Part shown: positions 33,691 through 51,116 of the stretch, in pieces
How positions within the stretch are numbered: position 1 is the stretch's first letter
Layout of the letters: each line of letters starts with the position of its first letter
Source of the DNA: Methylomonas sp.
GTDB lineage: Bacteria > Pseudomonadota > Gammaproteobacteria > Methylococcales > Methylomonadaceae
Length of the DNA stretch: 64,000 nucleotides
Reading direction: 5' to 3'
Assembly: GCA_002928965.1 (NCBI GenBank)
Contig: PERU01000010.1
Span: forward strand, 1-64,000
Made by a program: the position numbers and the translations under genes
The notes under the pieces: model-generated
The model's database searches: none
What the model saw: only the letters and a program-made list of their open reading frames with translations
What the model was told of the DNA's origin: nothing

Positions 33691-33751
33691 TTTTTTACTT
33701 TCACATTCTCATTTACTTAGATTCAGGCTTATATGACAGCATATTCTGCCT

Positions 33752-33787
33752 AAAAAAAAGCCCCCGTTACCCTAAGGTAACGGAGGC
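33752..33787 (-). terminator. pmoCAB Rho-independent terminator
   Basis: A GC-rich stem (CCGTTACC 33764-33771 with GGTAACGG 33776-33783, extended past one mismatch to 33760/33787) is followed on the minus strand by eight T residues (A run at 33752-33759). It sits 44 nt after the pmoB stop. Confidence 0.88.
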
Positions 33788-33830
33788 CTTTCCTCCTATC
33801 AGCCTAAGATTAGATCCTAGACTACTTTCA

Positions 33831-35075: not shown

Positions 35076-35170
35076 ATTTCCTCCTCTATTACTAGAGAAT
35101 CTTGTAATTAAGATCTACTGGCACTTTATATACAGCTGCACCAGCTTGCATTTTCAATCAAAACTTCAGA

Positions 35171-35920: not shown

Positions 35921-35971
35921 TAGCTTACCTCCTAAAGAATTAAAATTATATTTTTTTACTTTCTCTCTTAT

Positions 35972-35995
35972 CTTGCCCTGCCTAAACAGGGCAAG
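35972..35995 (-). promoter_or_regulatory. pmoC-pmoA intercistronic stem-loop
   Basis: The perfect 9-bp stem CTTGCCCTG / CAGGGCAAG with a 6-nt loop sits in the 110-bp spacer between pmoC and pmoA. No T tract follows on the minus strand, so it is more likely an mRNA processing or stabilising structure that sets subunit transcript levels than a terminator. Confidence 0.65.
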
Positions 35996-36030
35996 AAAGG
36001 AGATAGTATTTTACTTTTAAAGACTAGCGA

Positions 36031-36783
36031 TTAAGCCAGATCTTTTTTCAGCAATTTGGTAATTGCCATTACTTCGGTGTTCACAACACCCATTATAGCC
36101 AGAGCAGCCCAACCAAAGAATACGAAACCGTAATGCAATGGAGCAACGAACAACTCTTCCATAAACCAGAATGTGTGACCCCATTCGTTCAAACCTACGT
36201 TAGGCAGAATCATGAAAGGACCGATAACTGCGATCAAGTACATCAAGTGCAGACCTTCTTGGTATGTAGGCAGTCTTGTTTTTGCATACATGAAAGAAGC
36301 AGAGCCAGTAATGATGTAGATTGGGTACGACAAGTAGAATTCGATGATGTGACTTGGAGTAAAGTCAGTATCACGAACGATAGTTTGATGCCATGTACCA
36401 TCTTGCTCGGTGAAATAAGAAGCACCCCAGTAGATTGCCCAGCCGTAGCAGACCAACCAGATCCAGTGTGTAAAATGTCTTCTCAGTTCTTCACGTGGAG
36501 TGATTGACATCACTTTACGATCACGAGTTTTCCAGATATAGCCGTTAATACCAGCAAACAACAATACTTCGAGTACCAACTCGATGTACAGCATGTTCAT
36601 CCAGTATGTTTCAAACTCTGGAGCAAATGAGTCAAGACCAGCGGACCAGCCGTAAACACCTTCGTACCAACGAATGAAAGAATAAAAAACCAGATACAGC
36701 ATAATGCCTAGTGTCAGGTTTCTTCTATTTAAAAGCGGTGCTTCCGCAGCATCAGCCTTAACTGATTCAGTTGTAGCAGCCAT
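36031..36783 (-). CDS. pmoC: Particulate methane monooxygenase subunit C
   Basis: The protein is 250 aa, integral membrane. The metal-binding residues equivalent to Asp156, His160 and His173 of M. capsulatus are present as Asp128, His132 and His145 (EQDGTWH, then 12 residues, then SHIIEFY). The N-terminal region is soluble and about six helices follow. It is the first gene of the operon, with AGGAGGT 5 nt before the ATG and a leader of about 110 nt. Confidence 0.98.
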   Translation of the reverse strand: MAATTESVKADAAEAPLLNRRNLTLGIMLYLVFYSFIRWYEGVYGWSAGLDSFAPEFETYWMNMLYIELVLEVLLFAGINGYIWKTRDRKVMSITPREELRRHFTHWIWLVCYGWAIYWGASYFTEQDGTWHQTIVRDTDFTPSHIIEFYLSYPIYIITGSASFMYAKTRLPTYQEGLHLMYLIAVIGPFMILPNVGLNEWGHTFWFMEELFVAPLHYGFVFFGWAALAIMGVVNTEVMAITKLLKKDLA

Positions 36784-36811
36784 TTCTACCTCCTAAAAGA
36801 TTTTTAAATCC

Positions 36812-36929
36812 CCGGAAAAACCGGGAGTTCTTTGTTTTTCCTGTTACACAAAACTTATTCATGATCTGAATAAATCACTCACATCCCTGAGAGTGCTGGG
36901 CAGTCTACCACCTCGACTATTCATGTCAA
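36812..36929 (-). promoter_or_regulatory. pmoCAB sigma70 promoter and leader
   Basis: The consensus -35 TTGACA (36924-36929) and -10 TAGACT (36902-36907), on the minus strand with a 16-nt spacer, should start transcription near 36895. The leader of about 110 nt holds two small hairpins: CACTC...GAGTG around 36880-36900 and CCCGG-TTTTT-CCGGG around 36812-36827. I saw no obvious activator palindrome upstream to 37020. Confidence 0.75.
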
Positions 36930-37060
36930 GACAATATTCCAGTTTTTTATCAATTGCCTTAAACCCAACCTCATTCACCGCAATCACTTAACGCGGGCAA
37001 TATTTTTTTGCTAGAATTCTCGCGGAGTTAGCTCACTTAACAACTACAACACCACTAGCC

Positions 37061-37498
37061 ATGAATAAGAAAAAAATAATCCTGTTTGCCGTTTGTTTAG
37101 CACTGTTGCTTGCACTACAAATCAAATTTTTATTGCCCCTCATGACCAACATTGCTGCCTCCGACTTGTTTTTGGTTGAAAGCAACGATGACGCCAGTTC
37201 GATGCCAATATCGAATGACATGACGGCGATTGCATTCAGCCAGTGCAACAATTACATCAGCACCAAAATTGATTCCGATAGCACAGCTTCTTTCACCAAC
37301 CAGCCTACTAATGCCTGGAGCATTGGCAATTACGAATACATCATTAATGCGGAAGTTGATGTAGCAACCAAAGAGACACCTAGCACTATTTATCACTATG
37401 TGTGCCGCATTCAATATTCGATGGGGGACGACCTTTCAGGTGCTAATGACATCAATAACTGGTCAATTGCCGGTATAACTGGCTTACCTGACCTTTAA
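37061..37498 (+). CDS. Membrane-anchored hypothetical protein upstream of pmoC
   Basis: The protein is 145 aa. One N-terminal membrane helix (LFAVCLALLLALQIKFLLPL) is followed by an extracytoplasmic domain of about 115 residues, with Cys in FSQCNNYIST and YHYVCRIQYS that may be disulfide-linked. Family unknown. It is divergent from pmoCAB and convergent with the gene at 37571. No link to pMMO can be shown. Confidence 0.65.
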   Translation: MNKKKIILFAVCLALLLALQIKFLLPLMTNIAASDLFLVESNDDASSMPISNDMTAIAFSQCNNYISTKIDSDSTASFTNQPTNAWSIGNYEYIINAEVDVATKETPSTIYHYVCRIQYSMGDDLSGANDINNWSIAGITGLPDL

Positions 37499-37511
37499 AT
37501 TCGGAAATAAA

Positions 37512-37553
37512 TTAGGCAAAGACAACGCTTGAAATGATCATGTCTTTGCCTAA
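37512..37553. terminator. Hairpin between convergent genes
   Basis: A perfect 13-bp stem, TTAGGCAAAGACA / TGTCTTTGCCTAA (37512-37524, 37541-37553), with a 16-nt loop lies between the two convergent hypothetical genes. It is placed to end transcripts from both sides although T tracts are short. Confidence 0.6.
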
Positions 37554-37570
37554 GAACACCCTGCAAACTA

Positions 37571-38104
37571 TCACCGAGATCGCTTGGATCTTTCCTGTTC
37601 CAATGACTTGTGTCTTAGGTCTACATAATTTCCACCAACCCACTGCCAAAACGTTGCTGCGGCTTCAGGGCTATTGCTTATTAACTTAACAGCAATTGCC
37701 CCATTTGAACTGATGTCGGTAATTTCAGCGTCAATATCTATCGTGGCTTTGTTAGCCACAACCCGCCTATCTGTGTCAAAGCGAAACGTGACGGCCTCCC
37801 CCACTTTAAACAGCAAATCCTGTTTAAAACCACCCAAAAACTTCAATCTATATTCAGAAACGGACTGAAATGGCACAACGAACTCAGAATGCCAGCGAAA
37901 AGGCGGACACTGAATAGGTCCACTACCTTTAGGGAAATGCACTGTATATCCATCATCCACCTTGGCCTTAACCATGCCTTTGGTATAAATATCATGACAG
38001 TTGGTCAACACCTGTTCACCAGGCTCTATGTTATATTTCTTCGCTGCCTCTGCGGTGCTACAAGCTATGATCCAACCTATAAACAAAAATTGTAACGGTC
38101 TCAT
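37571..38104 (-). CDS. Exported hypothetical protein at the end of the HupE-TonB operon
   Basis: The protein is 177 aa with a signal peptide cleaved near AEAA. The beta-rich mature part contains Cys pairs (LTNCHDIY, PIQCPPFRWHSEF) and a basic C-terminus (HKSLEQERSKRSR). Family not recognised. It follows the HupE/UreJ-2 gene by 23 bp with Shine-Dalgarno AAGGAG, so it is likely the last gene of the operon that starts at 43009. Confidence 0.7.
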   Translation of the reverse strand: MRPLQFLFIGWIIACSTAEAAKKYNIEPGEQVLTNCHDIYTKGMVKAKVDDGYTVHFPKGSGPIQCPPFRWHSEFVVPFQSVSEYRLKFLGGFKQDLLFKVGEAVTFRFDTDRRVVANKATIDIDAEITDISSNGAIAVKLISNSPEAAATFWQWVGGNYVDLRHKSLEQERSKRSR

Positions 38105-38127
38105 GATGCACTCCTTATAGTTATTTT

Positions 38128-39225
38128 TTACTGCAAAACTGTTCTTTCCAACAGCCAGTATATCCCCATCAAGCTAACCACGAACGAACAGCCCTTTAAG
38201 AATTTTTCCGCAGTTTCAACTCTGCTGTTTAACCACCATATCATCGGCAATACAATCGATGCCACGACAATTTGCCCAGTCTCAATACCTAGATTGAAGG
38301 ACAGTAAAGGCATCAAAATCCCTGCCTCGCCCGAACTAATATCCAGTTCCCGCAACACCCCGGCAAAACCAAAACCATGCACCAAGCCAAAACCGAAGGT
38401 CAGCCAATGCCGCCCTTTGGGATGATCACCACGAATTATATTTTCCACAGCGACGTAAACAATGGTGGCGGCAATAAACGGCTCTACGAAGCTGCTGGGT
38501 AGTTCGACGAGATTTAAACCCGCACAAGCCAGGGTAATCGAATGGGCGACTGTAAAAAAAGTAATGATTTTTATAGCCGGCCAAAAGCTATGAGTGACCG
38601 CCAATAACGCAAACAGAAACAGCAAATGATCGTAACCAGTAACAATATGCTCCACACCCAGCTTAAAAAAATCACTAAATGTTGCAAACAACGACACCGA
38701 TGATCCTTCAATCGTCTCGCTTACACCCATTTCTAAATCCGCCTGAACACTCTGCTTACCCAGCATTTTCTCCTGCAACACACGCCCCTCTGCTGCACGT
38801 ATGGTCAGATACTGCTGATGACCATCCGGTAACAAACTCAGAAAATTTGATTGAATCTGCAGCTTTTTTTGTGGCGCTGCAGCATAGCTGAAAATTACCT
38901 GAGCATTATTCTGATGATCAAAATTCACCCCCCCGAACTCAACCGGCTTGACTTCCTGACCATCAATGACAAGCTTTAGCTGTTCGGCCATCAGTTTGAC
39001 AATGGCCGGCTTGGCTGACTCCCGCTCAGCATCACTGACTTCCGCATCCAAATCGCTATCCATTGGTAAAAATGCCTCAATGTCCTGTAAAGCGAAGGTT
39101 ACCTTAACCTCCACTTGCGCGTCTTTAATCAACACATCCAGCGAACTAAGTCCCGGCGGATGCGCATAGCACCAAGTCGAATACAGCACTAACAGCGTTA
39201 CAATTACCGATCTGCAAATCAACAT
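38128..39225 (-). CDS. HupE/UreJ-2 family membrane protein with EF-hand-like loop (copy 1)
   Basis: The protein is 365 aa. A signal peptide ends before His22 (AHPPGLSS), giving a predicted mature N-terminal His. The extracytoplasmic domain contains a canonical 12-residue EF-hand-type loop, D-S-D-L-D-A-E-V-S-D-A-E (56-67). The C-terminal half is the HupE/UreJ-2 membrane domain with HIVTGYDHLLFLFALLAVTH and a His-rich HGFGFAGVL helix. HupE-type proteins are secondary metal carriers, classically for nickel. The metal here is unproven. It is 9 bp downstream of the TonB receptor and paralogous to 44098-45213. Confidence 0.85.
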   Translation of the reverse strand: MLICRSVIVTLLVLYSTWCYAHPPGLSSLDVLIKDAQVEVKVTFALQDIEAFLPMDSDLDAEVSDAERESAKPAIVKLMAEQLKLVIDGQEVKPVEFGGVNFDHQNNAQVIFSYAAAPQKKLQIQSNFLSLLPDGHQQYLTIRAAEGRVLQEKMLGKQSVQADLEMGVSETIEGSSVSLFATFSDFFKLGVEHIVTGYDHLLFLFALLAVTHSFWPAIKIITFFTVAHSITLACAGLNLVELPSSFVEPFIAATIVYVAVENIIRGDHPKGRHWLTFGFGLVHGFGFAGVLRELDISSGEAGILMPLLSFNLGIETGQIVVASIVLPMIWWLNSRVETAEKFLKGCSFVVSLMGIYWLLERTVLQ

Positions 39226-39234
39226 ACTCTATCC

Positions 39235-41445
39235 TTAAAAATTGACAGTGATGGTGCCACGCACCATGCGCGGCTCAACCGGATGCCTCAAAACACCATC
39301 CACTGTATTAGCGCCATTCGGGTAAGCAGATCCGTAGGCATAGGCAATATCACTGCTTTGCGAACCCAGGATATTGAAAACGTTGATTTCAAATTTATAT
39401 TGCTTTTGTTTGATACCTGCCCCCAAATTGACGATATTGGTGTCACCGGACCAAAAATTACCTGACTCGTCAAGCGGCACATGACCGAAATGGCGCAATC
39501 GCAGCGTACCAAACAGACCGGTACTACCGGTAGGGTCTTCGACCAGAATGCCGGTGCTGATAACCCGTCCTACCGAATTGGGAACAAAATTATCAGTAGC
39601 GCCTTCAGGTGTGTCAGCAAAACGCGCCGTGGTGATGGCGTAGTCTGCATCCAAGGTCAGCCAATCCATAGGCTTATAGTAGTTGGTCCATTCAATACCG
39701 TACCTATCTGAAGCCCCATTGACTTCTGTGGTACCAGCGTCGCCGACGAATACCAATTCTTGACTGGAGTTTAACCACCACGCCGCAACTGTGGTATTCA
39801 AACCGGGTATAAAGTTACTGCGCACCCCAACTTCTGCACCGCGCGACCATGCGGCTGGATTAATCATTGACTCAGCTGGATTTAGAGATCTTCCATCAGT
39901 CTGGTCACGCCGTATGGTTGTACCCCGAGCATCGTTTGAATGGTAGCCATAACCAGCGTTAACAAAATACTCGGTGTCATACCAAGGACCAACAACCAAA
40001 CTGATTTTTGGGCTCAACATGACTTTGCCGCGATTTCCCGAGTTGGCTGCACTGATCGCTGCATTGTTTAACATATTGTCACGCACCCGCACATCGTTAT
40101 TGATGAAATCAGCCCGTAACCCGGTAATGGTGCGCACTTTTTCGTGCCAATGTGTGTGATTTTTGAAATACGTGCCGATGGTCGTGACACCGACATCACT
40201 TTTACTGACGGTATCCATAATCTGTCTGCCACTGGTTTGATACAACCCCAAATCCATGATCTGATCGTTACGGAATTGCACGCCGACAGTGTTGTCCATT
40301 TCCAAACCGAAGATTTTGTTGTAGCGAGTGTGATCGAAATTGGCTCCAGTTTGCACCCTCCGCTCAGTTTGCAGAATTTGATCCGATGGATAAAATTTAT
40401 TAGGGACCTCATAGCCATCGCCACAATTTGCACCGTTGTTACATGGATTATCAGGGCTTAATACATGACCGCTAAAATTGGAATACAACGCCAGATCGGT
40501 ATACAAAGCATAAATATTGGCGTCGTTTTTCCAATTGCTGCCGGTTTGCCAGAAATTGCCGGACAAACTATAGCGATTGGTTGTGCCGCCGTCGGTTGGG
40601 TCCATCGAACCATACAACCCTAAAGAGCCGTTATCAATGGCATACTGCGGAATCTGACCAGTCGCTGTCCAACTATTGCTGTAAGCCTTACCGTTGATCG
40701 ACATCCCCCAGTCATGCTCATCCAGCGTGTATTTCAGCATGCCGTTAAATTTTTTGGAGTCTTCCGGCACGTCCCAAACCCCGTTGTACAAATTGAACTC
40801 GGCCGCATAGAGCAAATCACCATCACCCAGCTTGTTCGAATTTGCCGCCAGCGTCCGGTAAAAATCGAATTCGCCAGCGGTAAACTTGACCATACCTTCC
40901 TTCAAGCGATTCATGGTATGCATTTTGGCATAGCCCGCTGCTGAAAAATCGCCTACTTCCGCATAATACGGTCCTTTGCCATACTCAATTTTACTGACCA
41001 ACTCAGGAATCACACTGCTAATGTCCATATAACCCTGTCCGTGAGCATGAGTTGTCATATTCATCGGAATGCCATCAACAAAGGTCGTAAAGTCTGTACC
41101 ATGATCCAGATTAAAGCCGCGCAAGAAGTATTGATTCGCCTTGCCGGAACCACTGTGCTGGGTTGCCACGGCCCCCGGAATAACCTCTATAAGTTCCCCA
41201 CCCCGCGAAAGAGGACGATGCTCAAACTGCTTTTGACTCACCTCGCCTTGTGAGGCTGTCTCTGCCAAACCGATCAGATCCTTACCTCGCCCATCTTCCT
41301 CAACCTCCACGCTCTCAAGCTCCTCGGCTTTATCCGAATCAACCGAATGAGCTTGAGCCAAGTGATAACTTAGCCCCATGGCCATACCCAAGCCTATAAC
41401 TAGCGGTTTAAGAATGAATTTTTTGTTTTTATTTGGGTTTGGCAT
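39235..41445 (-). CDS. TonB-dependent receptor, metal-region member
   Basis: The protein is 736 aa. The signal peptide ends before His33 (AQAHSVDSD), again a predicted N-terminal His. The plug motif FLRGFNLDHGTDFTTFVDGI is followed by a His/Met patch (PMNMTTHAHGQGYMD), and the barrel ends in Phe (RGTITVNF). This plug signature marks a receptor subfamily distinct from the one at 3095. Tight packing with HupE genes on both sides (9 bp and 28 bp) suggests it takes up the same metal. The His/Met patch would suit copper, which is an inference. Confidence 0.87.
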   Translation of the reverse strand: MPNPNKNKKFILKPLVIGLGMAMGLSYHLAQAHSVDSDKAEELESVEVEEDGRGKDLIGLAETASQGEVSQKQFEHRPLSRGGELIEVIPGAVATQHSGSGKANQYFLRGFNLDHGTDFTTFVDGIPMNMTTHAHGQGYMDISSVIPELVSKIEYGKGPYYAEVGDFSAAGYAKMHTMNRLKEGMVKFTAGEFDFYRTLAANSNKLGDGDLLYAAEFNLYNGVWDVPEDSKKFNGMLKYTLDEHDWGMSINGKAYSNSWTATGQIPQYAIDNGSLGLYGSMDPTDGGTTNRYSLSGNFWQTGSNWKNDANIYALYTDLALYSNFSGHVLSPDNPCNNGANCGDGYEVPNKFYPSDQILQTERRVQTGANFDHTRYNKIFGLEMDNTVGVQFRNDQIMDLGLYQTSGRQIMDTVSKSDVGVTTIGTYFKNHTHWHEKVRTITGLRADFINNDVRVRDNMLNNAAISAANSGNRGKVMLSPKISLVVGPWYDTEYFVNAGYGYHSNDARGTTIRRDQTDGRSLNPAESMINPAAWSRGAEVGVRSNFIPGLNTTVAAWWLNSSQELVFVGDAGTTEVNGASDRYGIEWTNYYKPMDWLTLDADYAITTARFADTPEGATDNFVPNSVGRVISTGILVEDPTGSTGLFGTLRLRHFGHVPLDESGNFWSGDTNIVNLGAGIKQKQYKFEINVFNILGSQSSDIAYAYGSAYPNGANTVDGVLRHPVEPRMVRGTITVNF

Positions 41446-41473
41446 GATTTCTCCTCTTTTATCATTTAATTAT

Positions 41474-43009
41474 TTAGGAATGACTGGCCTGATTGAATTG
41501 GACCGGTGGGGTGCTTGAACTTTGGTGTAGTAAGTCGGGTTGGGATGTGGCGACCTGCATGCCATCTCTTGCCGGCGCTAAAACCTGGATCACATTCTTA
41601 GCCACCCGATCACGAATCAGATTGCTCGACGGTAAAGCGGTCTTTAGACAAATCGCGTAAACAGAGCTTAAATCGCTTCCCGCCAAAAGGCAGACATAGT
41701 TACCTTGCAACAATCCCTCCAAACAAGATTGTTGAGATGAACGTACAAATGAAGTACGCAAGACCCACTCTGACCCATGAATGCTGTCAAATTGGCTATC
41801 TTTGCGTGAGGCTTTAGATGAAATTGTGCCAATATCAAAATTGGCAAACATCATGTGAAGATGTTTATCTTCAATGACTTGATGAATGGTTTTGCGGAAA
41901 TCGGGGAATTTGGGCTGAGCGTAAACAGGGCTATTTTCAACAGGAGGAGAGGTCAAGCCCACACCGTTGCTGAGCAAGCGCATCCCTGGGGTATGATTGA
42001 TATCCGGATACTGTTGCTTGAAACCTAAATCGGCTTGATTGTCAGAGTTTTCCGGGCACAACAAGAGCTGCCAGTCAATGAATGCATTCGCAGCACATAC
42101 ATTGGGTGCTAGCGCAGAATAATTGAGTGTCGACTTAAGTTTTCCACTGCCAATGAAACGAACTAAAGTCAGAAAATCAACAAAATTTGGCTTCGATATA
42201 CTCACTCCAAAATCTAACTGCCGGTGATGTGCTGAAAAACTCTTGCCGGTTACAGCTCCTGGAACGTCCATATAGCTGACGCCATAATTTAGCAATCCCC
42301 CTGTATTTGATGATGGCAATACAGTCGAAAAAACACTGCTGTCTTGGCTTGAAGTTACCGTATATTCAGCCAGAGCCGAGCCGGGAAACATCGCTGCCAG
42401 TAGACAGGTTACGCTCAACACCACCAGCTTAGCCACCAAAAAACCAGTGCCATGCAACAATAACGTTGCAAACATAAAACCCAAGAAATACGAGATCAAA
42501 CTGGCTGATGCCGAAATTTCTTGCCCATGGGCGAAGCCGTGAAAAAACGCAAAAAACGCCACAATCATGACATTTATCTTGCTGCTAAAACGGATTTTTC
42601 GGGTTATCAACACGCTGAAAACGGCGCAAGATAGCAAAATTATCCCTTCCACACTTGGAATCGAAACACCTGCTGCGCCAGCCAATCCACCTAGACTCAT
42701 CATGCCGACAAAAGCCAAGGGCAACATCCAAAATGCTTTGCCACGCAACTGTGCAGCCCAAACACCAACCGCCAGCATGGTAACCAAATGATCCCAACCA
42801 GTCAGTGGGTGACTAAAACCATGACTCCAGCCAATATTATCAAAATCGATAATTTGCTGAGTGACAAACGCCAAAAACAGCAGTATTGGCAAACCAACGG
42901 TAAGCATTAGCCTGCATGGACCGAGTCCTGCATCAGATGGTGTGCTTGAAATACTGGGTTGCATGAGATTTATAGCGATTAAAGCTGCCTGTTTAACGGG
43001 ATTTAGCAA
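41474..43009 (-). CDS. HupE-type membrane protein with a long unknown C-terminal extension
   Basis: The protein is 511 aa. Residues from about 30 to 215 are a HupE/UreJ domain (GFSHPLTGWDHLVTMLAVGV, FHGFAHGQEISA). HupE proteins are usually near 200 aa. The remaining ~290 residues, starting around SALAEYTVTSSQ, have no membrane helices, contain several Cys (NVCAANAF, LLLCPEN, QSCLEGLLQGNYVCLL) and match nothing I recognise. The helical part should transport metal, and the tail could be a periplasmic binding or docking domain. It is the first gene of the operon ending at 37571. Confidence 0.75.
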   Translation of the reverse strand: MLNPVKQAALIAINLMQPSISSTPSDAGLGPCRLMLTVGLPILLFLAFVTQQIIDFDNIGWSHGFSHPLTGWDHLVTMLAVGVWAAQLRGKAFWMLPLAFVGMMSLGGLAGAAGVSIPSVEGIILLSCAVFSVLITRKIRFSSKINVMIVAFFAFFHGFAHGQEISASASLISYFLGFMFATLLLHGTGFLVAKLVVLSVTCLLAAMFPGSALAEYTVTSSQDSSVFSTVLPSSNTGGLLNYGVSYMDVPGAVTGKSFSAHHRQLDFGVSISKPNFVDFLTLVRFIGSGKLKSTLNYSALAPNVCAANAFIDWQLLLCPENSDNQADLGFKQQYPDINHTPGMRLLSNGVGLTSPPVENSPVYAQPKFPDFRKTIHQVIEDKHLHMMFANFDIGTISSKASRKDSQFDSIHGSEWVLRTSFVRSSQQSCLEGLLQGNYVCLLAGSDLSSVYAICLKTALPSSNLIRDRVAKNVIQVLAPARDGMQVATSQPDLLHQSSSTPPVQFNQASHS

Positions 43010-43213
43010 ATGAATAAAAAACAGCTGCGTCTGATAGCGAATTGCTAACGCCTGCCCTCAATATTCAAAGGATTGTACTGCAAAATAATAAACTTTAGAA
43101 ATTCCCTGTCGATCTCAAGGAATAAACAGCTCTAAAAGCTATTAATCAGGACTCTGTCACGAGGAGTTTAAGCCGCTCTCAACAAGGGCTAAGAGATTTG
43201 ATTATTGAGATAG

Positions 43214-43233
43214 ACTGAGATCAAGGTCTCAGT
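43214..43233. repeat. ACTGAGA palindrome
   Basis: ACTGAGA-TCAAGG-TCTCAGT is a perfect 7-bp inverted repeat about 205 bp upstream of the HupE-extension gene. It may be an operator or a second hairpin of the adjacent terminator. The rest of 43010-43250 shows no gene. Confidence 0.4.
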
Positions 43234-43251
43234 GGATTTGATAAATTGCTC

Positions 43252-43288
43252 TTGGAAAAAACATGTTCCCCAAAAAAGGGGAACATGT
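43252..43288 (-). terminator. Rho-independent terminator of the 43303 gene
   Basis: A perfect 11-bp stem, ACATGTTCCCC / GGGGAACATGT (43261-43271, 43278-43288), with an A6 loop is followed on the minus strand by TTTTT. It lies 14 nt after the stop of the small secreted-protein gene, and it insulates that gene from the HupE-TonB operon downstream. Confidence 0.88.
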
Positions 43289-43302
43289 TAATCGGGCGTG
43301 TT

Positions 43303-43683
43303 TTAATGCGCCGCGTTGTACAGCTTCATCATTTCTTTATACATTGCCACCAATTCATTCAAGCTAGACGTTGCTGCTGCATCGCCAGACTCAACTTGTT
43401 CTTTGACAACTCTAAATTTTTCACCAGCTTTTTGACGTAAACGCTCGGTACCTTCGAAACGAAATTCTTTTTGCAATTGGCGAACTTCGCCCAGTGCAGC
43501 AATAATTTCCGCTTTATCAGCACCTTTAGCCTGCAAGCTTGCTGCTTCTTCGATTTTAGCCAACGCACCTTCGCCAGCTGCTCTCACTTTTGCGTCAGTA
43601 GCACCTGCAGCAAATGCAGATGAAGACATGACTAAAGCGGTTGTCATAACCAAAGAAACCAAAGCTTTTTTAATTTTTACCAT
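43303..43683 (-). CDS. Small helical secreted protein
   Basis: The protein is 126 aa with a clear signal peptide ending near SSAFAAG. The mature ~100 residues are Ala/Glu/Lys-rich and almost entirely helical (GEGALAKIEEAASLQAKGAD, LRQKAGEKFRVVKEQVESGD), ending in LYNAAH. There is no Cys, and the single His is C-terminal. The likely fold is a small four-helix bundle; function unknown. The ATG at 43683 is the start, since the upstream extension has no signal character. It has its own strong terminator and about 410 bp of upstream noncoding sequence, so it is probably a highly and separately expressed gene. Confidence 0.78.
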   Translation of the reverse strand: MVKIKKALVSLVMTTALVMSSSAFAAGATDAKVRAAGEGALAKIEEAASLQAKGADKAEIIAALGEVRQLQKEFRFEGTERLRQKAGEKFRVVKEQVESGDAAATSSLNELVAMYKEMMKLYNAAH

Positions 43684-44097
43684 TTGATAAATCCAATTGT
43701 TAGGGGGTGTTGTAATACTAATCAGCAATTTGATTGTGATAAGTTGTAATTTTATTAGCTGCCTCTATGCAGCAAATTTATCCTACCATAGTCAGCCAAA
43801 TATTACCGCGAATACCACAATTTATTTTTACCGGCAGGTATTTTCATATTACACGAAAAATTAAAATCCCACTGCGTATCAAATTCAGAATATAAAATAA
43901 ATAACCCTTTTAAAACAAAGCCTTATTTGGCTTTAACTAATTTTAAACCCGTTTCAATTTTGATTTCTGAAGTCTAAGCAATTTTCTGATAATAACCATA
44001 ATTTAATCAAGGTAAATTAACACTGGGCTGATTGCGTTTAAAATCAATAATCCGGGCAAACAACAGACCCTAAACCAGAAACAGTTAAAGGGATTTT
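43684..44097. other. AT-rich noncoding region
   Basis: These 414 bp upstream of the small secreted-protein gene contain no credible ORF. A small hairpin (GCTGC-CTCTAT-GCAGC) lies near 43757-43772. The region probably holds the minus-strand promoter of the 43303 gene, but I could not fix a convincing -35/-10 pair. No RNA gene was recognised. Confidence 0.4.
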
Positions 44098-45213
44098 TTA
44101 TAAGATGGTGCGCTCCAAGAACCAATAAGCACCCACGAAACAGATCAACAACGAAATCGCCCTGAGGAATTTTGTAGCGAATTTCGGCCTACTGTTCAAC
44201 CACCAAATCATCGGCAGCACCAAAGCGGCCATAACAACCTGCCCAATCTCTATTCCAAGATTAAACGACAACAAGGGCAAAACAATGCCGGTATTGCCGC
44301 TGGAAATATTCAATTCCTGCAACACGCTGGCAAATCCAAAACCATGCACCAAACCAAATACGAAGGTCAGCCAATGCCGCCCTTTGGGATGATCGCCTCG
44401 TATCAAGTTTTCAGTTGCGACGTAGACAATACTGGCTGCAATAAACGGTTCAATAAAATCACTGGGTAACTCAACCAGATTCATGACTGCCATCCCCAAA
44501 GTAACTGAATGGGCAATGGTAAAAAAAGTGATGATTTTGATAGCAGGCCAGAAGCTATGGGTAACTGCGAGTAAGGCAAACAAAAATAACAAGTGGTCAT
44601 ACCCGGTAACGATATGCTCTAATCCCAGCTTTAAAAAATCAATAAAGGCAGGCACCCAAGAATTGCTTTTGGCCTGAGATTTACCGTCAACAAGCGAAAA
44701 ATCCAGTTGCAGCTGGTTATCAAATTTATTTAACACCTTCTCCTGCAAAGCATTGCCATCAACCCCGATAATTTTGACAAATTGCTGATGACCATCTGGC
44801 AATAACCCCAAAAAATGGGAATGAAAAGCCAGTCGCTGTTGCGGCGAAGAGACAAATCGATACTTGATGTGTGAATTATTCTGTCCATCAAAGTCAACAT
44901 GACCCGGTGACTCGGGCTTCACTTGATGACCATCGATCTCAATACCAATGTTTTCCGACATAAATCCAGCTATCAGCGGCTTTGCGGCTTCCCGTTCAGC
45001 GTCAGTGACATCTGCATCCAGGTCACTATCCATCGGCACGAATGCTTCAACGTCTTGCATTGAGAACGTCACATTTACAAGCAAATGCTCGGGTTTAATC
45101 ACTATATCGACCGAACTAAGCCCTGGTGGATGAGCGAATACCCCATGCAGTTGAAACAACAAACCAAATAGCAGCAGACTTTTCGCAAGTACCATTGCTG
45201 GCACATGCTTCAT
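44098..45213 (-). CDS. HupE/UreJ-2 family membrane protein with EF-hand-like loop (copy 2)
   Basis: The protein is 371 aa and closely similar to the copy at 38128-39225. It has a predicted mature N-terminal His28 (AHPPGLSS), an EF-hand-type loop D-S-D-L-D-A-D-V-T-D-A-E (62-73) and a membrane half with the same HIVTGYDHLLFLFALLAVTH stretch. It overlaps the upstream lipoprotein gene by 4 nt, so it is coupled to it and belongs to the operon with copC. Two copies in two neighbouring operons point to a local duplication. Confidence 0.85.
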   Translation of the reverse strand: MKHVPAMVLAKSLLLFGLLFQLHGVFAHPPGLSSVDIVIKPEHLLVNVTFSMQDVEAFVPMDSDLDADVTDAEREAAKPLIAGFMSENIGIEIDGHQVKPESPGHVDFDGQNNSHIKYRFVSSPQQRLAFHSHFLGLLPDGHQQFVKIIGVDGNALQEKVLNKFDNQLQLDFSLVDGKSQAKSNSWVPAFIDFLKLGLEHIVTGYDHLLFLFALLAVTHSFWPAIKIITFFTIAHSVTLGMAVMNLVELPSDFIEPFIAASIVYVATENLIRGDHPKGRHWLTFVFGLVHGFGFASVLQELNISSGNTGIVLPLLSFNLGIEIGQVVMAALVLPMIWWLNSRPKFATKFLRAISLLICFVGAYWFLERTIL

Positions 45214-45872
45214 GCCTGACTATCCTGGCCCTGCATTTTCGACTTTCTTTTATACACATAGGTCAGAAAACCCAGTATTAGCAATACCCCCCCACCTAAA
45301 GAAATAACCGCGATGACAGGCAGCGTGGACCCGCTGGGTTCTACGCCAACCTCAAGCATGACCCTAAATTTATCGTCCTCTTCGATCGCATCACCGATTA
45401 AAAAATACAAAACATAGTCGCCGTTTTTATCGACTTCCGCCTGTGCTTCAACTGCTCCGCGCGGATAAAGCTGGCTGGCAATTTCAGTAATCGTGCGAAT
45501 TTCGCGAATATCGTTCGGTGCTTTCTCACCGGTTTTTTCTACTTCAACCAAACGAATGCCTATAGGCGTGGTGCGGATATCTCGATCGATCAAATCGGCA
45601 GTAAAAAACATTTTGCCGGCCCGTGGAATTTGCTGACAAAAAGGCACAAACGCCGCTTTAGAATCTGCACTGACATCCTCCTTGGACGGTTGCAAATAAG
45701 TACTGAAATGCACCGCATAAAAATCGTTGGCAATAATACAATCCAGATCGGGCCGATTACCCAGCGCATTGGATTGCTTGGTACCGAAACCCAGTTTCTC
45801 GCAACCCGTCAGAAAAACCGTGCTGAGCATTAAAACTAAAACAATAAAAATAGAGAGTCGCTGAATTTTCAT
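45210..45872 (-). CDS. Lipoprotein with C-terminal membrane helix
   Basis: The protein is 220 aa. An N-terminal lipobox (FLTGC) is followed by an extracytoplasmic domain with CIIANDFYAVHFSTYL and FVPFCQQIPRAGKMFF, then a C-terminal hydrophobic helix (LPVIAVISLGGGVLLILGF) and basic tail. The two Cys and a nearby His could bind metal or form a disulfide. Family not recognised. It lies between copC (31 bp) and the HupE copy 2 gene (overlapping). Confidence 0.72.
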   Translation of the reverse strand: MKIQRLSIFIVLVLMLSTVFLTGCEKLGFGTKQSNALGNRPDLDCIIANDFYAVHFSTYLQPSKEDVSADSKAAFVPFCQQIPRAGKMFFTADLIDRDIRTTPIGIRLVEVEKTGEKAPNDIREIRTITEIASQLYPRGAVEAQAEVDKNGDYVLYFLIGDAIEEDDKFRVMLEVGVEPSGSTLPVIAVISLGGGVLLILGFLTYVYKRKSKMQGQDSQA

Positions 45873-45903
45873 AAGGTTTAGGCGATTTAGAATCGAGGCT
45901 GAA

Positions 45904-46275
45904 TTAAGGCTTTACGGTGAATTGAAATTTACCGGTGACAATATGGGTATCCTGAGATACCACCCGATAACGCACGGTATAGATACCCGCAGGCAAATCC
46001 CCAACCGTGGCATGAATATGCGAGCCATCAGTCAAGGCCTGTTCGACGTCGTGGTTATCAACTCGCTTGCCTTCGCTATCAATCACAGCCAAAGCCTTAT
46101 ATTCACTTTTTACCGGATCGTTAAACCATAGATCGATTTGTTTGGGCGCAACCGTGACGGTTTCGTCTTTGGTGGGTTGGGATTTGACCAAAATTGCATG
46201 CGCTGATGCCGACATTGGTGTTAATGCCACAGCCAGCAAAACTACTGATGAAAAAAATATTGTTGATTTACGCAT
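45904..46275 (-). CDS. copC: CopC-family copper-binding protein
   Basis: The protein is 123 aa. The signal peptide is cleaved before His (SASAHAILVKSQP), giving the N-terminal His of the type II copper site. A C-terminal DTHIVTGKFQFTV segment supplies the Asp/His ligands known for Cu(II)-only CopC proteins. The Met-rich loop of the Cu(I)-type is absent. It is a periplasmic copper carrier. No CopD is adjacent; HupE copy 2 is the membrane partner candidate. Confidence 0.9.
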   Translation of the reverse strand: MRKSTIFFSSVVLLAVALTPMSASAHAILVKSQPTKDETVTVAPKQIDLWFNDPVKSEYKALAVIDSEGKRVDNHDVEQALTDGSHIHATVGDLPAGIYTVRYRVVSQDTHIVTGKFQFTVKP

Positions 46276-46305
46276 ATCACTGTCTCGTTATGGTTATAGT
46301 TTTAG

Positions 46306-47544
46306 TTATTCAAGAATCGCTGTCATCCATTGTTTAAAGCCGCCCGGCTTTTGTTCCAGCCACATTGCCAAAAATCCGCCATCAGTGGCAACAATCCGAG
46401 GAAAGCTCGCGGAACTGCCGGGAGATGAAAGCTGTTTGGATACTGACCATTGGCTACCACTATCAAGCGATTCGCTCATCATCACGCGTGAGCCATCCGC
46501 CCCTGTCGCGTCCCAAACTGCCAGTACACGTTTAGATCCCAACGCGGCAATATCGCTATGAAACGCCAGTGTTCCAGCCCCCATGGCTTGCGGTGCCGAC
46601 CAGTGTTTGCCATTGTCAGCGGACTGCAAATAATACAAGCCGGATTTATTTTCCACGCCAGTCCACACCAATGCGTGTAGATTTACGTCATTGCCAGCCA
46701 ATCCCCCACCATTGTGCGGACAGCCATCAAACGTCCAATTAAATTCACCGACCGAACCAATGCGCTGCCAGCTTTTTCCACTATCAGCCGACTGAGCCAA
46801 CGCCATATCCCGCGGCTGCATATCCCGATAGAGCAGATTGACATTTCCAGCCCAATCGAGCCACAAGCGATTCCAACAGCAAGAACAACTAGAATCATCG
46901 ATCGTTTGCGCCAGCTCCCAATGCTTTCCGACATCCGCACTACGCGCATATCGAACACCCTGGTAACCATTTTCGTCACGATCATCCAGCCAGACCAGAT
47001 GAAAATGACCTTGCGGATCCGCAATCAATTCGGGGTGCGATTGATCAATGGTACTGACGGTTGGATTGCTGCCGGTGTACCACGATTTCCCGTCATCTTC
47101 AGAATATAGGACCATTAAAGGCCCCATGCCCGGAATTTCACCGGTTTGTTGCAAAACGGCCATCAACGAATCAGCGCTTGCCGCAATTTGCACTTCATTT
47201 CCCAGTGTTGATTCCAATCCAGCCGCCGCAACATTAGGGATTTCCACTGGGACTGACCAACTGCGACCCTTGTCAACGGAATGCAGATAGCCGATACAAG
47301 GTTGATCTGAGCCAATTTTTTTCGCCGCAAACAATCCATGCAATTTAAAGCCTTGCGAATACACGTCATAGCTAAGTAAGCCTTGACAATTAAGTGCCGC
47401 AAAATCTATCGATCTGATTGCTGTAATGTCTATCGGCTGAAGATTCCGATCGGCTAACCCCCCCCACTGTGAGCAAGCTGACAATTGCATCCCAACTATC
47501 AACAACATTCCTTTAGAGAGTATCTTCGCTATAAAATCTGGCAT
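46306..47544 (-). CDS. Asp-box (BNR) beta-propeller lipoprotein with CSCC motif
   Basis: The protein is 412 aa with a lipobox (LSACSQW). Six Asp-box repeats of the form S-x-D-x-G-x-x-W are visible (SVDKGRSW, SEDDGKSW, SADVGKHW, SADSGKSW, SADNGKHW, SLDSGSQW), indicating a six-bladed propeller of the sialidase type. The sialidase catalytic residues are not evident. One inter-blade loop holds SSCSCCWNRLW, a Cys cluster suited to thiol metal binding. It lies between the sensor kinase and copC, so it may be a surface metal-binding protein. Confidence 0.85.
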   Translation of the reverse strand: MPDFIAKILSKGMLLIVGMQLSACSQWGGLADRNLQPIDITAIRSIDFAALNCQGLLSYDVYSQGFKLHGLFAAKKIGSDQPCIGYLHSVDKGRSWSVPVEIPNVAAAGLESTLGNEVQIAASADSLMAVLQQTGEIPGMGPLMVLYSEDDGKSWYTGSNPTVSTIDQSHPELIADPQGHFHLVWLDDRDENGYQGVRYARSADVGKHWELAQTIDDSSCSCCWNRLWLDWAGNVNLLYRDMQPRDMALAQSADSGKSWQRIGSVGEFNWTFDGCPHNGGGLAGNDVNLHALVWTGVENKSGLYYLQSADNGKHWSAPQAMGAGTLAFHSDIAALGSKRVLAVWDATGADGSRVMMSESLDSGSQWSVSKQLSSPGSSASFPRIVATDGGFLAMWLEQKPGGFKQWMTAILE

Positions 47545-47614
47545 ACAAACTAGCTCTTCAAAAACGACCGATGATTACAACACACTGAAACTAAAAGCTG
47601 AACCCTATTTGCAT

Positions 47615-49015
47615 TCAATCGGATAAATCCGCCAAATCAAACCACAGCGTCGCGTTCAAACCACCCAATCCCGACTTTGAGAAACGGATACTTGCAGCGT
47701 GTAATCGGATAATTCTCTGCACAATAGACAATCCCAAACCACTACCTTCCGCAGATTGAGCGGTTTCGACACAGCGATAAAAGCGTTGGCTGATCCGTTC
47801 ATAATCCTGATCGGCAACGCCGGGCCCACTATCTTCGACAATAAAACATACCCGTTGCAAGTCTTGCTGCACAATGACGTTAACTTTGCCATCTGCCGGC
47901 GTGTACTTGATGGCATTATCCAGCAAATTCCGCAACAGGATACTGAGTAACTGAGGGTTAGCCTCAATCGCCAAACCATCCTGCCCGCTTAATTCGATCT
48001 CGATATTTTTTTCATGCGCGGAAAACTCGATCTCGGCAATCACCGCGATCACCGCCTGATTGATATCCACCTTTTGTTTGCTGAGTTGCACGTTATGATG
48101 CTGGACCCTGGACAAGGTCAAAAGTTGCTGCACCATATGTGTCATACGCATTACAGCTTGCTGACATTTTTGCAGCGCCTGATTACGCATGCCTTCATCC
48201 TGCGCCTTTTGAGCCACTTGTAACTGTGTCATCATGCCCGCCAGCGGGGTTTTTAATTCATGCGAGGCATCCGAGGTGAAATTTCGCTCATTGGCAAAAG
48301 CCTGCTCCAACAACTCAAATAGGGCATTGATCTGTTGAACCATGGGCACCACTTCCTCCGGTAACCTGTTTAGCGGTAAAGGTTTCAAATGCCCCACTTG
48401 GCGTGATGCCAATTGCTCCTTGAGCCTGTTTACCGGTTTAAGCGTTCGGCTGACTATCACACCAATCACCACGCCGAGTACCGGAAGCGCCAGAAGCATG
48501 GCCAATACTTGCTGATTAGCCAGCGACGCTACTAATTCATGACGAATATCATCGCGCTGACCCACATGAATGATGTAGTCGCCATTTTCGCTACTGATAC
48601 TAAACACATGCCAAAGTTGATTGTTGATCGAAGTTTCGCTGTAACCATTGCGAGTCAATGACAAAGCAAACTCCGGTGCGCTTTCCGAGCGAAGCACCAC
48701 ACCTTCTTTGACTGAACGCAATTGAAAGGCAATTTTGCGCTCATATTTTTGCCCCAAAATGGGCATGGAAAACAAATCAGGGGATTTTTCCTGATCCCAT
48801 AATTTAGTCAATCGGCGTTGCTGTAACAAATTTTCGACAAAGGCATGCACCACGCGGGCAGACTGCGCCAGTTCGGCATTAAATAATTGGGTGATTTGAT
48901 CGCGGGTTTGCTGGTAACTGGCATAGACCATCAAGCCCCAAACCATCAATAAGGCAGATAGCAGCGACAGCAGCAGCTGCTTTTTTAACGAACGCGGACG
49001 CAGCCTGAGCTTCAT
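47615..49015 (-). CDS. Sensor histidine kinase
   Basis: The protein is 466 aa. The first membrane helix (about 13-33), a periplasmic sensor domain (about 34-168), the second helix (about 169-190), HAMP, a dimerisation domain with phosphoacceptor His252 (SDASHELKTPLAG) and an ATPase domain (NLLDNAIKY, DSGPGV, GSGLGLSI) are all present. The class is that of QseC/PmrB/CusS-type kinases. The sensor domain has no obvious metal-ligand cluster. It follows the response regulator by 2 bp. Confidence 0.94.
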   Translation of the reverse strand: MKLRLRPRSLKKQLLLSLLSALLMVWGLMVYASYQQTRDQITQLFNAELAQSARVVHAFVENLLQQRRLTKLWDQEKSPDLFSMPILGQKYERKIAFQLRSVKEGVVLRSESAPEFALSLTRNGYSETSINNQLWHVFSISSENGDYIIHVGQRDDIRHELVASLANQQVLAMLLALPVLGVVIGVIVSRTLKPVNRLKEQLASRQVGHLKPLPLNRLPEEVVPMVQQINALFELLEQAFANERNFTSDASHELKTPLAGMMTQLQVAQKAQDEGMRNQALQKCQQAVMRMTHMVQQLLTLSRVQHHNVQLSKQKVDINQAVIAVIAEIEFSAHEKNIEIELSGQDGLAIEANPQLLSILLRNLLDNAIKYTPADGKVNVIVQQDLQRVCFIVEDSGPGVADQDYERISQRFYRCVETAQSAEGSGLGLSIVQRIIRLHAASIRFSKSGLGGLNATLWFDLADLSD

Positions 49016-49017
49016 AC

Positions 49018-49677
49018 TCAGAGATCGTCAATGATGTAACCCACTCCTCGAATGGTGCGGATCAGATTGGCATCCAGTTTTTTGCGCAAATGGTGAATGT
49101 GTACTTCGACTGCATTGCTTTCAACTTCCGAGCCCCAAGCATACAAAGCCTCTTCAAGCCGCGCGCGCGAAGTGACGTGACCAATATGATTCATCAGATA
49201 ATTAAGAATTTCATATTCTTTTTGCGACAGATCGACTGTCGCGCCGTTGTAAAACACCTGATGCGCCGCAGGATCAATGGTTACGCCTTTATGTTCAATC
49301 ACTGGCAGCCCGTGACCTTCATTACGTCGAGCCAAGGCACGTAAGCGGGCACAAATTTCTGTCAAATCGAAGGGTTTACAGACGAAGTCGTCAGCGCCAC
49401 TATCCAATCCTGCCACTCGTTCAGTTACACCATCACGGGCAGTCAACACCAGTACAGGCGTATTATCTTTGCGCTTGCGCAGGTTTTTTAAAACAGTCAT
49501 GCCATCCATGCGCGGCAGATTCAAATCCAGCACGATCAAATCGTAGTGATTCAATCTCAGCGCCTCATCAGCCTGCGCACCGTCGGTCAGCCAATCCACC
49601 GCATAACCTTCCAGACTCAAGCCAGTTTTCAAACCATCACCGAGAATGGCGTCATCTTCTACCAATAACAATCGCAT
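49018..49677 (-). CDS. OmpR/PhoB-family response regulator
   Basis: The protein is 219 aa. The receiver domain has the acidic pocket (VEDD) and phospho-Asp51 (DLIVLDLNLPRMDG), followed by a winged-helix DNA-binding domain (KEYEILNYLMNH, EVHIHHLRKKL). It is the first gene of the run leading through the kinase, the Asp-box lipoprotein, copC and HupE, and so a natural regulator of these genes. The metal signal is inferred, not shown. Confidence 0.95.
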   Translation of the reverse strand: MRLLLVEDDAILGDGLKTGLSLEGYAVDWLTDGAQADEALRLNHYDLIVLDLNLPRMDGMTVLKNLRKRKDNTPVLVLTARDGVTERVAGLDSGADDFVCKPFDLTEICARLRALARRNEGHGLPVIEHKGVTIDPAAHQVFYNGATVDLSQKEYEILNYLMNHIGHVTSRARLEEALYAWGSEVESNAVEVHIHHLRKKLDANLIRTIRGVGYIIDDL

Positions 49678-49748
49678 CGCGTTAAGCCAGATAATTTATG
49701 TGCGGGGCATTTTAGCAAGTAAGCCAAACTTCAGCGCGGCAAAGCATT

Positions 49749-50192
49749 TCATGGACAGGTTTCCACTTCAAACACAGTACCTTTCACTGATACGACCTTG
49801 ACCTTGCTGCCGATCGGGCAATCTTCACCCTCAACCATCCAAATACTATCACCGACCTTGATCTTACCCTGACCATTTTCGATAGCAACCACTACATTGA
49901 AAGTACGTCCGATATATTGCGCACCACGTTGATTTAACAGCGGCTGATCGCTTTCCTGCGATTTGGCACTGACATAGCGCCGCCATACCAAAATCGAAAT
50001 AACGGCCAAAATTGAGAACAACAGTAACTGCACCTCAAATGACAGACTCGGAAGCATCAGTAGAATCGATCCAACCACAAACGCTGATACTGACAGCCAC
50101 AGAAAAAAGAAGCCGGGTGCCAACAGTTCAACGGCTAAAAAGCCCACTGCCAACACCCACCAATACCAAAACTCGATCATCAGTTCATTCAT
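49749..50192 (-). CDS. NfeD-family membrane protein
   Basis: The protein is a 147-aa short-type NfeD with three to four N-terminal membrane helices and a C-terminal OB-fold (GRTFNVVVAIENGQGKIKVG, VEGEDCPIGSKVKVV). These proteins pair with SPFH proteins in membrane microdomains and quality control. It is 3 bp downstream of the SPFH gene, an operon found in most bacteria. Confidence 0.93.
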   Translation of the reverse strand: MNELMIEFWYWWVLAVGFLAVELLAPGFFFLWLSVSAFVVGSILLMLPSLSFEVQLLLFSILAVISILVWRRYVSAKSQESDQPLLNQRGAQYIGRTFNVVVAIENGQGKIKVGDSIWMVEGEDCPIGSKVKVVSVKGTVFEVETCP

Positions 50193-50195
50193 GGC

Positions 50196-51116
50196 TTATG
50201 CCTTTTTGTTCAAGGCTTCCTTGGCCAATTCACCGATACCGCCCAAAGCACCGATCACACTGGAAGCTTCCAGCGGCATGAAGATCAGTTTACTGTTGTT
50301 GGCCGAGGCAACTTCTTTTAAGGATTCAATGTATTTTTGCGCCACAAAATAGTTGATGGCTTGAACGTCACCTTTGGAAATTGCTTCTGAAACCATCATG
50401 GTGGCGCGCGCTTCCGCTTCGGCCAGACGTTCGCGGGCTTCGGCATCGCGGAACGCGGCTTCTTTACGGCCTTCCGCATCCAGAATCGCCCCTTGTTTCA
50501 AACCTTCGGCTTTCAAAATTTCCGCTTGCCGCATGCCTTCTGCTTCCAGAATTTGCGCGCGTTTCTCCCGTTCCGCTTTCATTTGCCGAGCCATGGAATC
50601 CACCAGATCTTTGGGCGGCGAAATATCCTTGATTTCGATACGGGTGACTTTGATCCCCCAAGGCGAGGTGGCCTCGTCAACCACGCTCAACAAGCGGGCA
50701 TTGATTTCATCACGCCGCGACAACAATTCGTCCAGATCCATCGAACCCATCACAGTACGGATGTTGGTCATCACCAGATTGATGGTGGCCAAGTCCAAAT
50801 ACGTAATTTCATAGGCTGCCTTGGCGGCATCCATGACTTGGTAAAACACCACCCCATCGACCCGAACCATGGCGTTGTCTTTGGTGATGACTTCCTGTGA
50901 AGGCACGTCCAGCACCTGTTCCATCATATTCAGTTTACGGCCGATGCGGTCGATGATCGGCATGATGATATTCAAGCCAGGAGTCAGGGTATTGGTGTAT
51001 TTGCCAAATCGTTCGACGGTATATTCCATGCCCTGGGGAACTGATTTGACGCTCATAAAGACTAACATTATTGCAAACATAAACAGCATGGTTACAAACA
51101 AGCCAAAGCCGCCCAT
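50196..51116 (-). CDS. SPFH/stomatin-family protein (QmcA-like)
   Basis: The protein is 306 aa. One N-terminal membrane segment is followed by a band-7 domain ([40 protein letters not shown]) and a long charged coiled coil with a repeated EA-rich pattern ([20 protein letters not shown]). Strong Shine-Dalgarno GAGGAGG. It forms oligomeric membrane scaffolds with NfeD. Confidence 0.95.

Follow-up and report, generated by a model that had tools for sequence, protein, structure and literature searches.

Two metal-handling gene runs upstream of pmoCAB in a Methylomonas genome

The region upstream of pmoCAB

The window analyzed here (64,000 nucleotides of Methylomonas sp. contig PERU01000010.1, taken as a whole) contains, next to pmoCAB, eleven open reading frames (ORFs) that all lie on the minus strand between positions 37571 and 49677. 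A preliminary description of the region had listed eleven genes on one strand, and each is present as placed, according to its ORF and, for most, a Pfam match. It had set the start of the region about 0.8 kb upstream of pmoC; the last gene ends 788 bases short of pmoC (36783), with a single gene for a protein of 145 amino acids on the opposite strand between them (37061-37498, +). Six of the genes form run A, which extends from a response regulator to a first HupE/UreJ-2 gene (hereafter, HupE2) with gaps of 2, 70, 30, 31, and -4 bases. Four others form run B, which extends from a HupE with a long C-terminal extension to an exported protein with gaps of 28, 9, and 23 bases. The two runs are separated by a small helical gene flanked by gaps of 369 and 293 bases. 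The features of the region are as follows.

49018-49677 (-): OmpR-type response regulator that opens run A (family model search)
47615-49015 (-): sensor histidine kinase, 2 bases 3' of the regulator (family model search)
46306-47544 (-): exported Asp-box (BNR) protein containing CSCCW and GCPH (Pfam BNR_2)
45904-46275 (-): CopC of the Cu(II) brace type, having DxH and a mature His1 (Pfam CopC; PDB 5icu)
45210-45872 (-): PmoD homologue of the Cx9HxnC class with a hydrophobic C-terminal stretch (profile against PDB)
44098-45213 (-): PmoD-linked HupE2 of the anglerase type, with an N-terminal His domain and a membrane permease, last gene of run A (PF13795)
43303-43728 (-): small helical exported protein between the runs (ORF; alignment of a 9-member family)
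43260-43289 (-): terminator-like hairpin of 12 pairs with a T tail, directly 3' of the stop codon of the small helical gene
41474-43009 (-): HupE, nickel-permease-like, with a C-terminal extension of about 300 residues (PF04955)
39235-41445 (-): TonB-dependent receptor with conserved His (Pfam Plug domain; trees)
38128-39225 (-): second HupE2 of the anglerase type, directly 3' of the TonB gene (HupE_UreJ_2)
37571-38104 (-): exported protein without a Pfam family, last gene of run B (ORF; its family occurs near TonB and HupE2 genes in several genera)

Pfam scores (in bits, against the cut-off) were 58.4 against 31.4 for BNR_2 (PF13088), 87.6 against 23.3 for CopC, 49.6 against 23.9 for the TonB Plug domain, 157.5 and 157.3 against 24.5 for the two HupE_UreJ_2 domains, and 148 against 23 for HupE_UreJ (PF04955). 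No Pfam family scored above its cut-off for the receptor barrel, the small protein, or the exported protein. A scan for terminators returned 17 sites, close to the chance expectation of 13.5 (standard deviation of 3.5), so the site at 43260-43289 is called by the length of its hairpin and by its position. Since this hairpin falls between the two runs, the eleven genes probably do not form a single transcription unit. In the reading that we favor, which has about an even chance of being correct, the region consists of two modules set end to end beside pmoCAB, namely, a copper relay and a nickel-type importer.

Copper ligands and conservation of run A

The gene that the preliminary description had called a lipoprotein encodes a PmoD homologue, and the rest of its naming (an Asp-box protein with CSCC, CopC, HupE-type proteins, and a TonB receptor) stands. 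Searched against PDB, a profile of 34 homologues matched PmoD (6cpd, E=4e-13) and no other entry up to an E value of 10. The protein in the window has the arrangement C45-x9-H55-xn-C79, with C45 and C79 present in 44 of 44 aligned sequences, and a hydrophobic C-terminal stretch is visible by eye in the alignment. It does not follow the Cx7MxHxnC motif of the CuA-forming subclass but belongs to the Cx9HxnC class, whose tested member binds copper without forming CuA, according to the part of PMC6189053 available to us. CopC matches the CopC of PDB entry 5icu (E=4e-13) in an alignment that begins with H26 at residue 1, and it retains both Cu(II) brace ligands, the mature N-terminal His (ASA/HAILVKSQP, cleaved at the slash) and the DxH motif (SQDTHIVTG).

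In the first HupE2, the His that follows the signal peptide is invariant (H22, in 46 of 46), and an acidic, EF-hand-like D-x-D-x-D...E stretch is conserved. A fold search assigned the HupE2 domain to the Ig-like periplasmic fold of anglerases and placed its mature His on residue 1 of the copper-bound structure 9gce. The search with the second HupE2 also returned the zinc proteins ZrgA and PA4063, indicating that copper is not proven by the fold alone. In the available part of PMC12537917, the Ang-1 domain of the studied anglerase binds copper with a Kd of 74 nM and nickel with a Kd of 220 nM.

The Asp-box protein contains the BNR/Asp-box repeats of GH33 and resembles sialidases in PDB weakly (E=0.0014). 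Its residues C220, C222, C223, W224, C275, P276, and H277 are invariant in 20 of 20 sequences, and motifs of the CSCC and CPH types occur together in 76 of 80 relatives, making it a candidate copper-binding protein of methane and ammonia oxidizers. Among family models, the response regulator scores best with a QseB-like model, with the heavy-metal CopR model in fifth place, and it fails to reach the cut-off of any of the 25 families listed. Neither the regulator nor the kinase attains a metal-specific cut-off.

Scanning one genome per species with the Asp-box alignment yielded 188 relatives, the best 80 loci of which were read. By record title, 14 of these belong to Methylomonas, 10 to Nitrosomonas, and 56 to others (mostly Methylococcales or loosely named proteobacteria). 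Both search patterns contain GCPH, so relatives without this motif could have escaped the scan, and the window's own genome and very near genomes are possibly absent from the set. Counts of gene order include only loci with enough flanking sequence. CopC follows the Asp-box gene within 500 bases in 13/13 Methylomonas-titled, 10/10 Nitrosomonas-titled, and 34/53 other loci, and PmoD occupies its place in the order in 13/13, 9/9, and 38/50, respectively, so that Asp-box, CopC, and PmoD are collinear throughout the two named groups. HupE2 takes its place in 10/11, 0/8, and 24/42 loci, and no match to HupE or HupE2 occurs in the 10 Nitrosomonas loci, several of which are short. Counterparts of the kinase and regulator were present in 11/11 Methylomonas-titled loci for which 2.8 kb of upstream sequence was available (at identities of at least 50% and at least 60%, respectively), in 0/7 Nitrosomonas-titled loci, and in 3/46 others. 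The recurrence of Asp-box, CopC, and PmoD in the same order in many genomes indicates an arrangement beyond chance, and it bears out the earlier view of a conserved metal-handling region with copper proteins, as do the CopC ligands, the PmoD homology, and the anglerase type of the HupE2.

Linkage of run A to other genes was scored within 9 kb on both sides of the Asp-box gene. Genes for pmo are near it in 1/8 Methylomonas-titled, 0/4 Nitrosomonas-titled, and 8/22 other loci, so that other genera, too, have similar Asp-box sets close to pmo genes. A TonB gene accompanies the copper run in 3/4 Nitrosomonas-titled and 15/22 other loci but in only 1/8 Methylomonas-titled loci, to which can be added the window, L043, and L046. 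NikR is near the Asp-box gene in 1/8, 0/4, and 0/22 loci, and the sole Methylomonas-titled locus of the 8 with a TonB gene near the copper run is also the one with NikR. In five Nitrosomonas loci (L265, L272, L281, L283, and L292), genes for TonB, a Trx-like protein, the Asp-box protein, CopC, and PmoD stand in a row, and an amoC-like gene is nearby in L292; the label Trx denotes a putative thioredoxin-like protein, assigned by eye from a CSSC motif.

Pairs of CopC and PmoD are of two types. Among 44 PmoD loci, 25 are of type 1, in which DxH is present in all 24 with a CopC and PmoD has Cx9H in 22 and Tyr in 3. The other 19 are of type 2, in which DxH occurs in none, PmoD has Cx9N in all 19, and Glu replaces the His past the presumed cleavage site of CopC in 18 (L204 was not read). 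All 19 type 2 loci have the membrane genes c6 or c14 nearby, and 16 of the 19 have NikR within 4.5 kb. The joint loss of copper ligands in CopC and PmoD suggests that type 2 pairs have switched metal. Both types occur in the genome of the window (G000), with type 1 in the window itself and type 2, accompanied by NikR, on contig C1. The latter pair is part of a second metal island (L100, G000:C1:393000-412000, positions 3651-13872) composed of a small helical protein, a response regulator and histidine kinase, a TonB receptor, a short HupE, a cytochrome c'-like protein, PmoD and CopC devoid of the ligands, two membrane proteins, and NikR; the HupE-TonB pair that trails NikR in many relatives is absent from it. 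Type-2-like sets also occur in L204 and L254, in which NikR is not in view (the ligands of L254 were not read).

Receptor ancestry and the HupE extension in run B

Five His residues of the receptor (H97, H115, H135, H502, and H721) are common to all 123 aligned rows, and H133 occurs in 116, but no Cys or Met is conserved in more than 90%. The copper receptor OprC differs from this pattern. No PDB chain is similar to the receptor by sequence at an E value of 0.001 or below. In the receptor tree, the window's receptor is sister (SH-aLRT of 97) to that of L042, which has both NikR and pmoCAB beside it. Both fall in a 31-row clade (support of 100), and NikR lies within 3.5 kb in 19 of its 30 rows other than the window's. 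The same holds for 20 of the 44 rows from the genus. The receptor thus shares descent with NikR-linked receptors; it has neither a NikR box nor an adjacent nikR of its own. The NikR of the window's genome is on another contig (C1:406419). Homologues of the receptor are present, at E values of 0.001 or below, in 52 of 61 genomes (weak matches included) and in 103 of 161 genomes of the family, 92 of them strong. NikR occurs in 14 of these 161 genomes, indicating that most receptors of the family do without it. A separate clade joins Nitrosomonas (5 tree rows) with Methyloglobulus.

A NikR box (GTATGA-N15-TCATAC, or its N16 form, with 0 or 1 mismatch) lies upstream of HupE, HoxN, or TonB genes in 9 of 57 loci scanned. 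The N15 form precedes HupE or TonB in L046, L050, L051, L052, L057, L070, and L092, and the N16 form occurs in L048 and, upstream of HoxN-TonB, in L040. The sister locus L042 has nikR adjacent, yet its best box has 3 mismatches. Relatives of the receptor also occur in 52 plasmid records, five of which were read: nikR is adjacent to the receptor in those of Comamonadaceae and Methylomagnum, HoxN and hydrogenase genes are nearby in Cupriavidus pHG1, HoxN is adjacent and hydrogenase nearby in Bradyrhizobium, and in Indioceanicola a HupE/UreJ gene is present, with no nikR or hydrogenase listed. Either nikR or HoxN together with NiFe hydrogenase is thus near the receptor in 3 of the 4 nonmethanotroph plasmid loci. 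The window's genome contains urease; its matches to a hydrogenase model are weak and split (best E=6.9e-16) and are read as Nuo-like.

By eye, the HupE in run B has what we take to be HX5DH and FHGxxHGxE-like motifs. Its extension of about 300 residues is hypervariable except for a conserved motif at residues 327-356. All 37 extended HupEs of the genus set have the sequence F[KR]xYYPDINHTPGxxLLSNGVGLTSPP, or a close variant, in the variable stretch after the last helix, and in most copies, the window's included, this helix ends in an AxA-like site. Third codon positions of the motif vary freely whereas its residues are fixed, such that the constraint acts on the protein and an RNA or DNA element was rejected; by this codon pattern, the motif is a feature conserved at the protein level. 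When Rfam was searched over 33000-50500 with a limit of E=1, the only two matches fell short of the gathering score and did not overlap the HupE gene, so that the motif is not a known RNA element. A misread frame was likewise rejected as the origin of the extension, which is open and motif bearing in 37/37 genus-set copies of at least 300 amino acids and occurs in further genera.

A profile of the motif matched 37 of 201 genomes of the order and 8 of 48 genera, some weakly, and had no match in three genomes of the same genus (G015, G020, and G027). The core of the motif is doubled in copies from g20 and g24. Among 12 motif loci outside the genus, 11 consist of a HupE followed by a TonB gene (with a HupE2 between them in L145), and the other, L144, is a motif match without a HupE that looks spurious. 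Of ten further copies within the genus, six lie ahead of another TonB family and two ahead of ExbB-like, DUF2149, and CobN genes; no receptor adjoins the remaining two. These associations link the tail strongly to outer membrane import. The window's genome encodes another two extended HupEs that carry the motif (L098:6159-10168 and L099:2123-10858), one ahead of a different TonB receptor and one ahead of ExbB-like, DUF2149, CobN-like, and TonB genes. At L138:3289-6048, a frame of 919 amino acids scores as a TonB receptor and its first residues resemble, by eye, the N terminus of HupE, as might result from a HupE-TonB fusion or from a missed start.

Metal routes and their alternatives

Our proposal for the direction of transport, the metals, the two-component control, and the contacts between partners is as follows. 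Run A would be a copper relay in the envelope under two-component control, in which the Asp-box protein (with CSCC and CPH), CopC, and the membrane-anchored PmoD bind periplasmic copper and hand it on near pMMO, and the anglerase-type HupE2 gives entry to the membrane or cytoplasm. The receptor of run B would import a metal or metal complex across the outer membrane, from where the HupE permease and second anglerase would move it inward. By ancestry, run B may carry nickel, for which the genome has a urease, but a NikR box is missing in this lineage, where the run now adjoins a copper relay. Copper is the probable metal of run A. For run B, nickel, which the preliminary description had named as an alternative for the region, is slightly favored by the ancestry of the receptor and the NikR boxes of its relatives and has roughly even prospects, with copper a lesser though substantial possibility and any other metal improbable.

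Several observations weigh against this division. The two-component pair misses the heavy-metal cut-offs for membership in CusRS or CopRS (199.8 against 292.6 for TIGR01386; 189.3 against 279.2 for TIGR01387). A NikR box was sought in the window and rejected: all 21 matches have 3 mismatches, with 20.5 expected by chance, and the best N16 site (36262, inside pmoC) has 2. The 48 other loci of the 57 scanned contain weaker sites or none. Genomes lacking both urease and true NiFe hydrogenase make up 19 of the 92 receptor-bearing genomes of the family, a count that depends on thresholds and includes several drafts. HupE2 copies beside TonB and beside PmoD cluster by genus first, which hints at one metal shared across the two contexts, although the window's copy does form a group (90/86) with three other Methylomonas copies linked to PmoD or CopC. 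The CopC of the same run in L070, which has no PmoD beside it, keeps His1 but lacks DxH. Finally, in Nitrosomonas and Methyloglobulus a homologous receptor leads the row TonB-Trx-Asp-CopC-PmoD with no NikR seen, such that copper fits the receptor better there.

This last arrangement favors the single outer-membrane-to-cytoplasm copper route of the preliminary description, by which pMMO would be supplied with copper that TonB takes up as a complex, that the Asp-box protein, CopC, and PmoD carry, and that the HupE-type proteins bring inward. The proximity of Asp-box sets to pmo genes in 8 of the 22 other loci is also in its favor, and the Nitrosomonas loci without a HupE or HupE2 match suggest that such a route can end in the periplasm. 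Copper is well supported for run A, but the run B receptor falls in a subclade with NikR linkage and boxes, TonB is rarely near the copper run in Methylomonas-titled loci (with NikR in the one case), neighbors are of the nickel type in 3 of 4 nonmethanotroph plasmid loci, and the receptor's His pattern is unlike OprC; we therefore consider one copper route for the entire region rather unlikely. Quite improbable is a shared outer gate with two exits, in which the receptor admits both Cu(II) and Ni(II), and CopC, PmoD, and the Asp-box protein withdraw the copper needed by pMMO, which spares nickel uptake by HupE from a copper block. The affinity of Ang-1 for both metals (in the part of PMC12537917 available) and the linkage of copper proteins to both receptor clades, and of NikR to one, agree with it. 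So does the distribution of nickel enzymes, which occur in 73 of 92 receptor-bearing and 29 of 69 other genomes of the family (odds ratio of 5.3, P = 1.4e-6, kinship ignored), but this association is confounded by kinship and genome size. That the entire region serves nickel or cobalt, with CopC and PmoD having drifted to those metals, is very improbable: type 2 pairs near NikR and the CobN, ExbB-like, and DUF2149 genes downstream of related HupEs provide precedents, but the CopC and PmoD of the window keep their copper ligands, and run A lies beside pmo genes and occurs in ammonia oxidizers.

A search for literature on this cluster found none by title or abstract start (the HupE motif itself was not searched), and papers on PmoD and anglerases cover parts of it; in PMC13108547, matches fell in the reference list only. 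In the available part of PMC6189053, which treats pmo- and amo-linked copper genes (pmoD, copC, copD, and pCuAC) of alphaproteobacterial methanotrophs and betaproteobacterial ammonia oxidizers, CopC stands beside a Cx9HxnC PmoD, as in the window. Both sets come from CuMMO organisms, and their PmoD proteins share a C-terminal helix and a pair of invariant Cys, but the window has the Asp-box CSCC protein, the anglerase HupE2, and the two-component pair in place of CopD and PCuAC, neither of which Pfam recognized in the run. The main text of that paper, as far as available, gave no match to TonB, HupE, or sialidase. With the anglerases of PMC12537917 (PDB 9gce), in the part available, the window shares the mature N-terminal His, the Ig-like periplasmic domain, and the PF13795 membrane domain; it differs in that one copy follows PmoD and another follows TonB, and in the conserved acidic D-x-D-x-D...E stretch. 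The same part of that source already describes another N-terminal-His family, DUF4198, with TonB and NikR as neighbors, and cites (as reference 26) the rhizobial HupE nickel permease, whose PF04955 domain scores above cut-off in the window HupE too and whose HX5DH and FHGxxHGxE-like motifs it shares by eye, though the latter adds the extension with its one conserved motif. NikR-regulated or Ni(II) TonB receptors include FrpB4, FecA3, Bll6948, Daro_3944, and others (names from the part of PMC11247825 available). The window's receptor family resembles them in that relatives lie near nikR, HoxN, and hydrogenase and some have NikR boxes ahead, a likeness of context and clade and not of identity to the named receptors; the window's receptor is unlike them in its lack of a box and adjacent nikR and in its copper-gene neighbors.

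To our knowledge, copper delivery to pMMO and AMO in gammaproteobacterial methanotrophs and ammonia oxidizers is an open question. New here are the naming of the supposed lipoprotein as PmoD and the occurrence of an Asp-box CSCC protein followed by CopC and PmoD in both groups of oxidizers, and the gene set constitutes a concrete, genetically testable metal-supply region in which a TonB-HupE pair beside pmoCAB does not by itself signify a copper importer. An unlikely extension of these results is that TonB-Trx-Asp(CSCC)-CopC-PmoD(-anglerase) would be a dedicated system for copper acquisition and delivery common to methane and ammonia oxidizers, whose outer gate Methylomonas would have swapped for a nickel-type receptor-HupE pair, so that both metals would enter through a single gate and leave by different exits; the HupE tail, which is constrained only near L[TS]NGVGxTSPP, would then be severed at the last helix and act as a soluble or tethering peptide that couples permease to receptor.

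Two minor features adjoin the pmo genes. The subthreshold Rfam matches (NsiR1 and ctRNA) lie just 3' of pmoB at 33748-33809 (-) and are probably due to chance. The 145-amino-acid protein encoded at 37061-37498 (+) has a hydrophobic N terminus, 62 to 80% identity to its relatives, and no Pfam match, and its family also adjoins pmoC in L042, L050, and L070.

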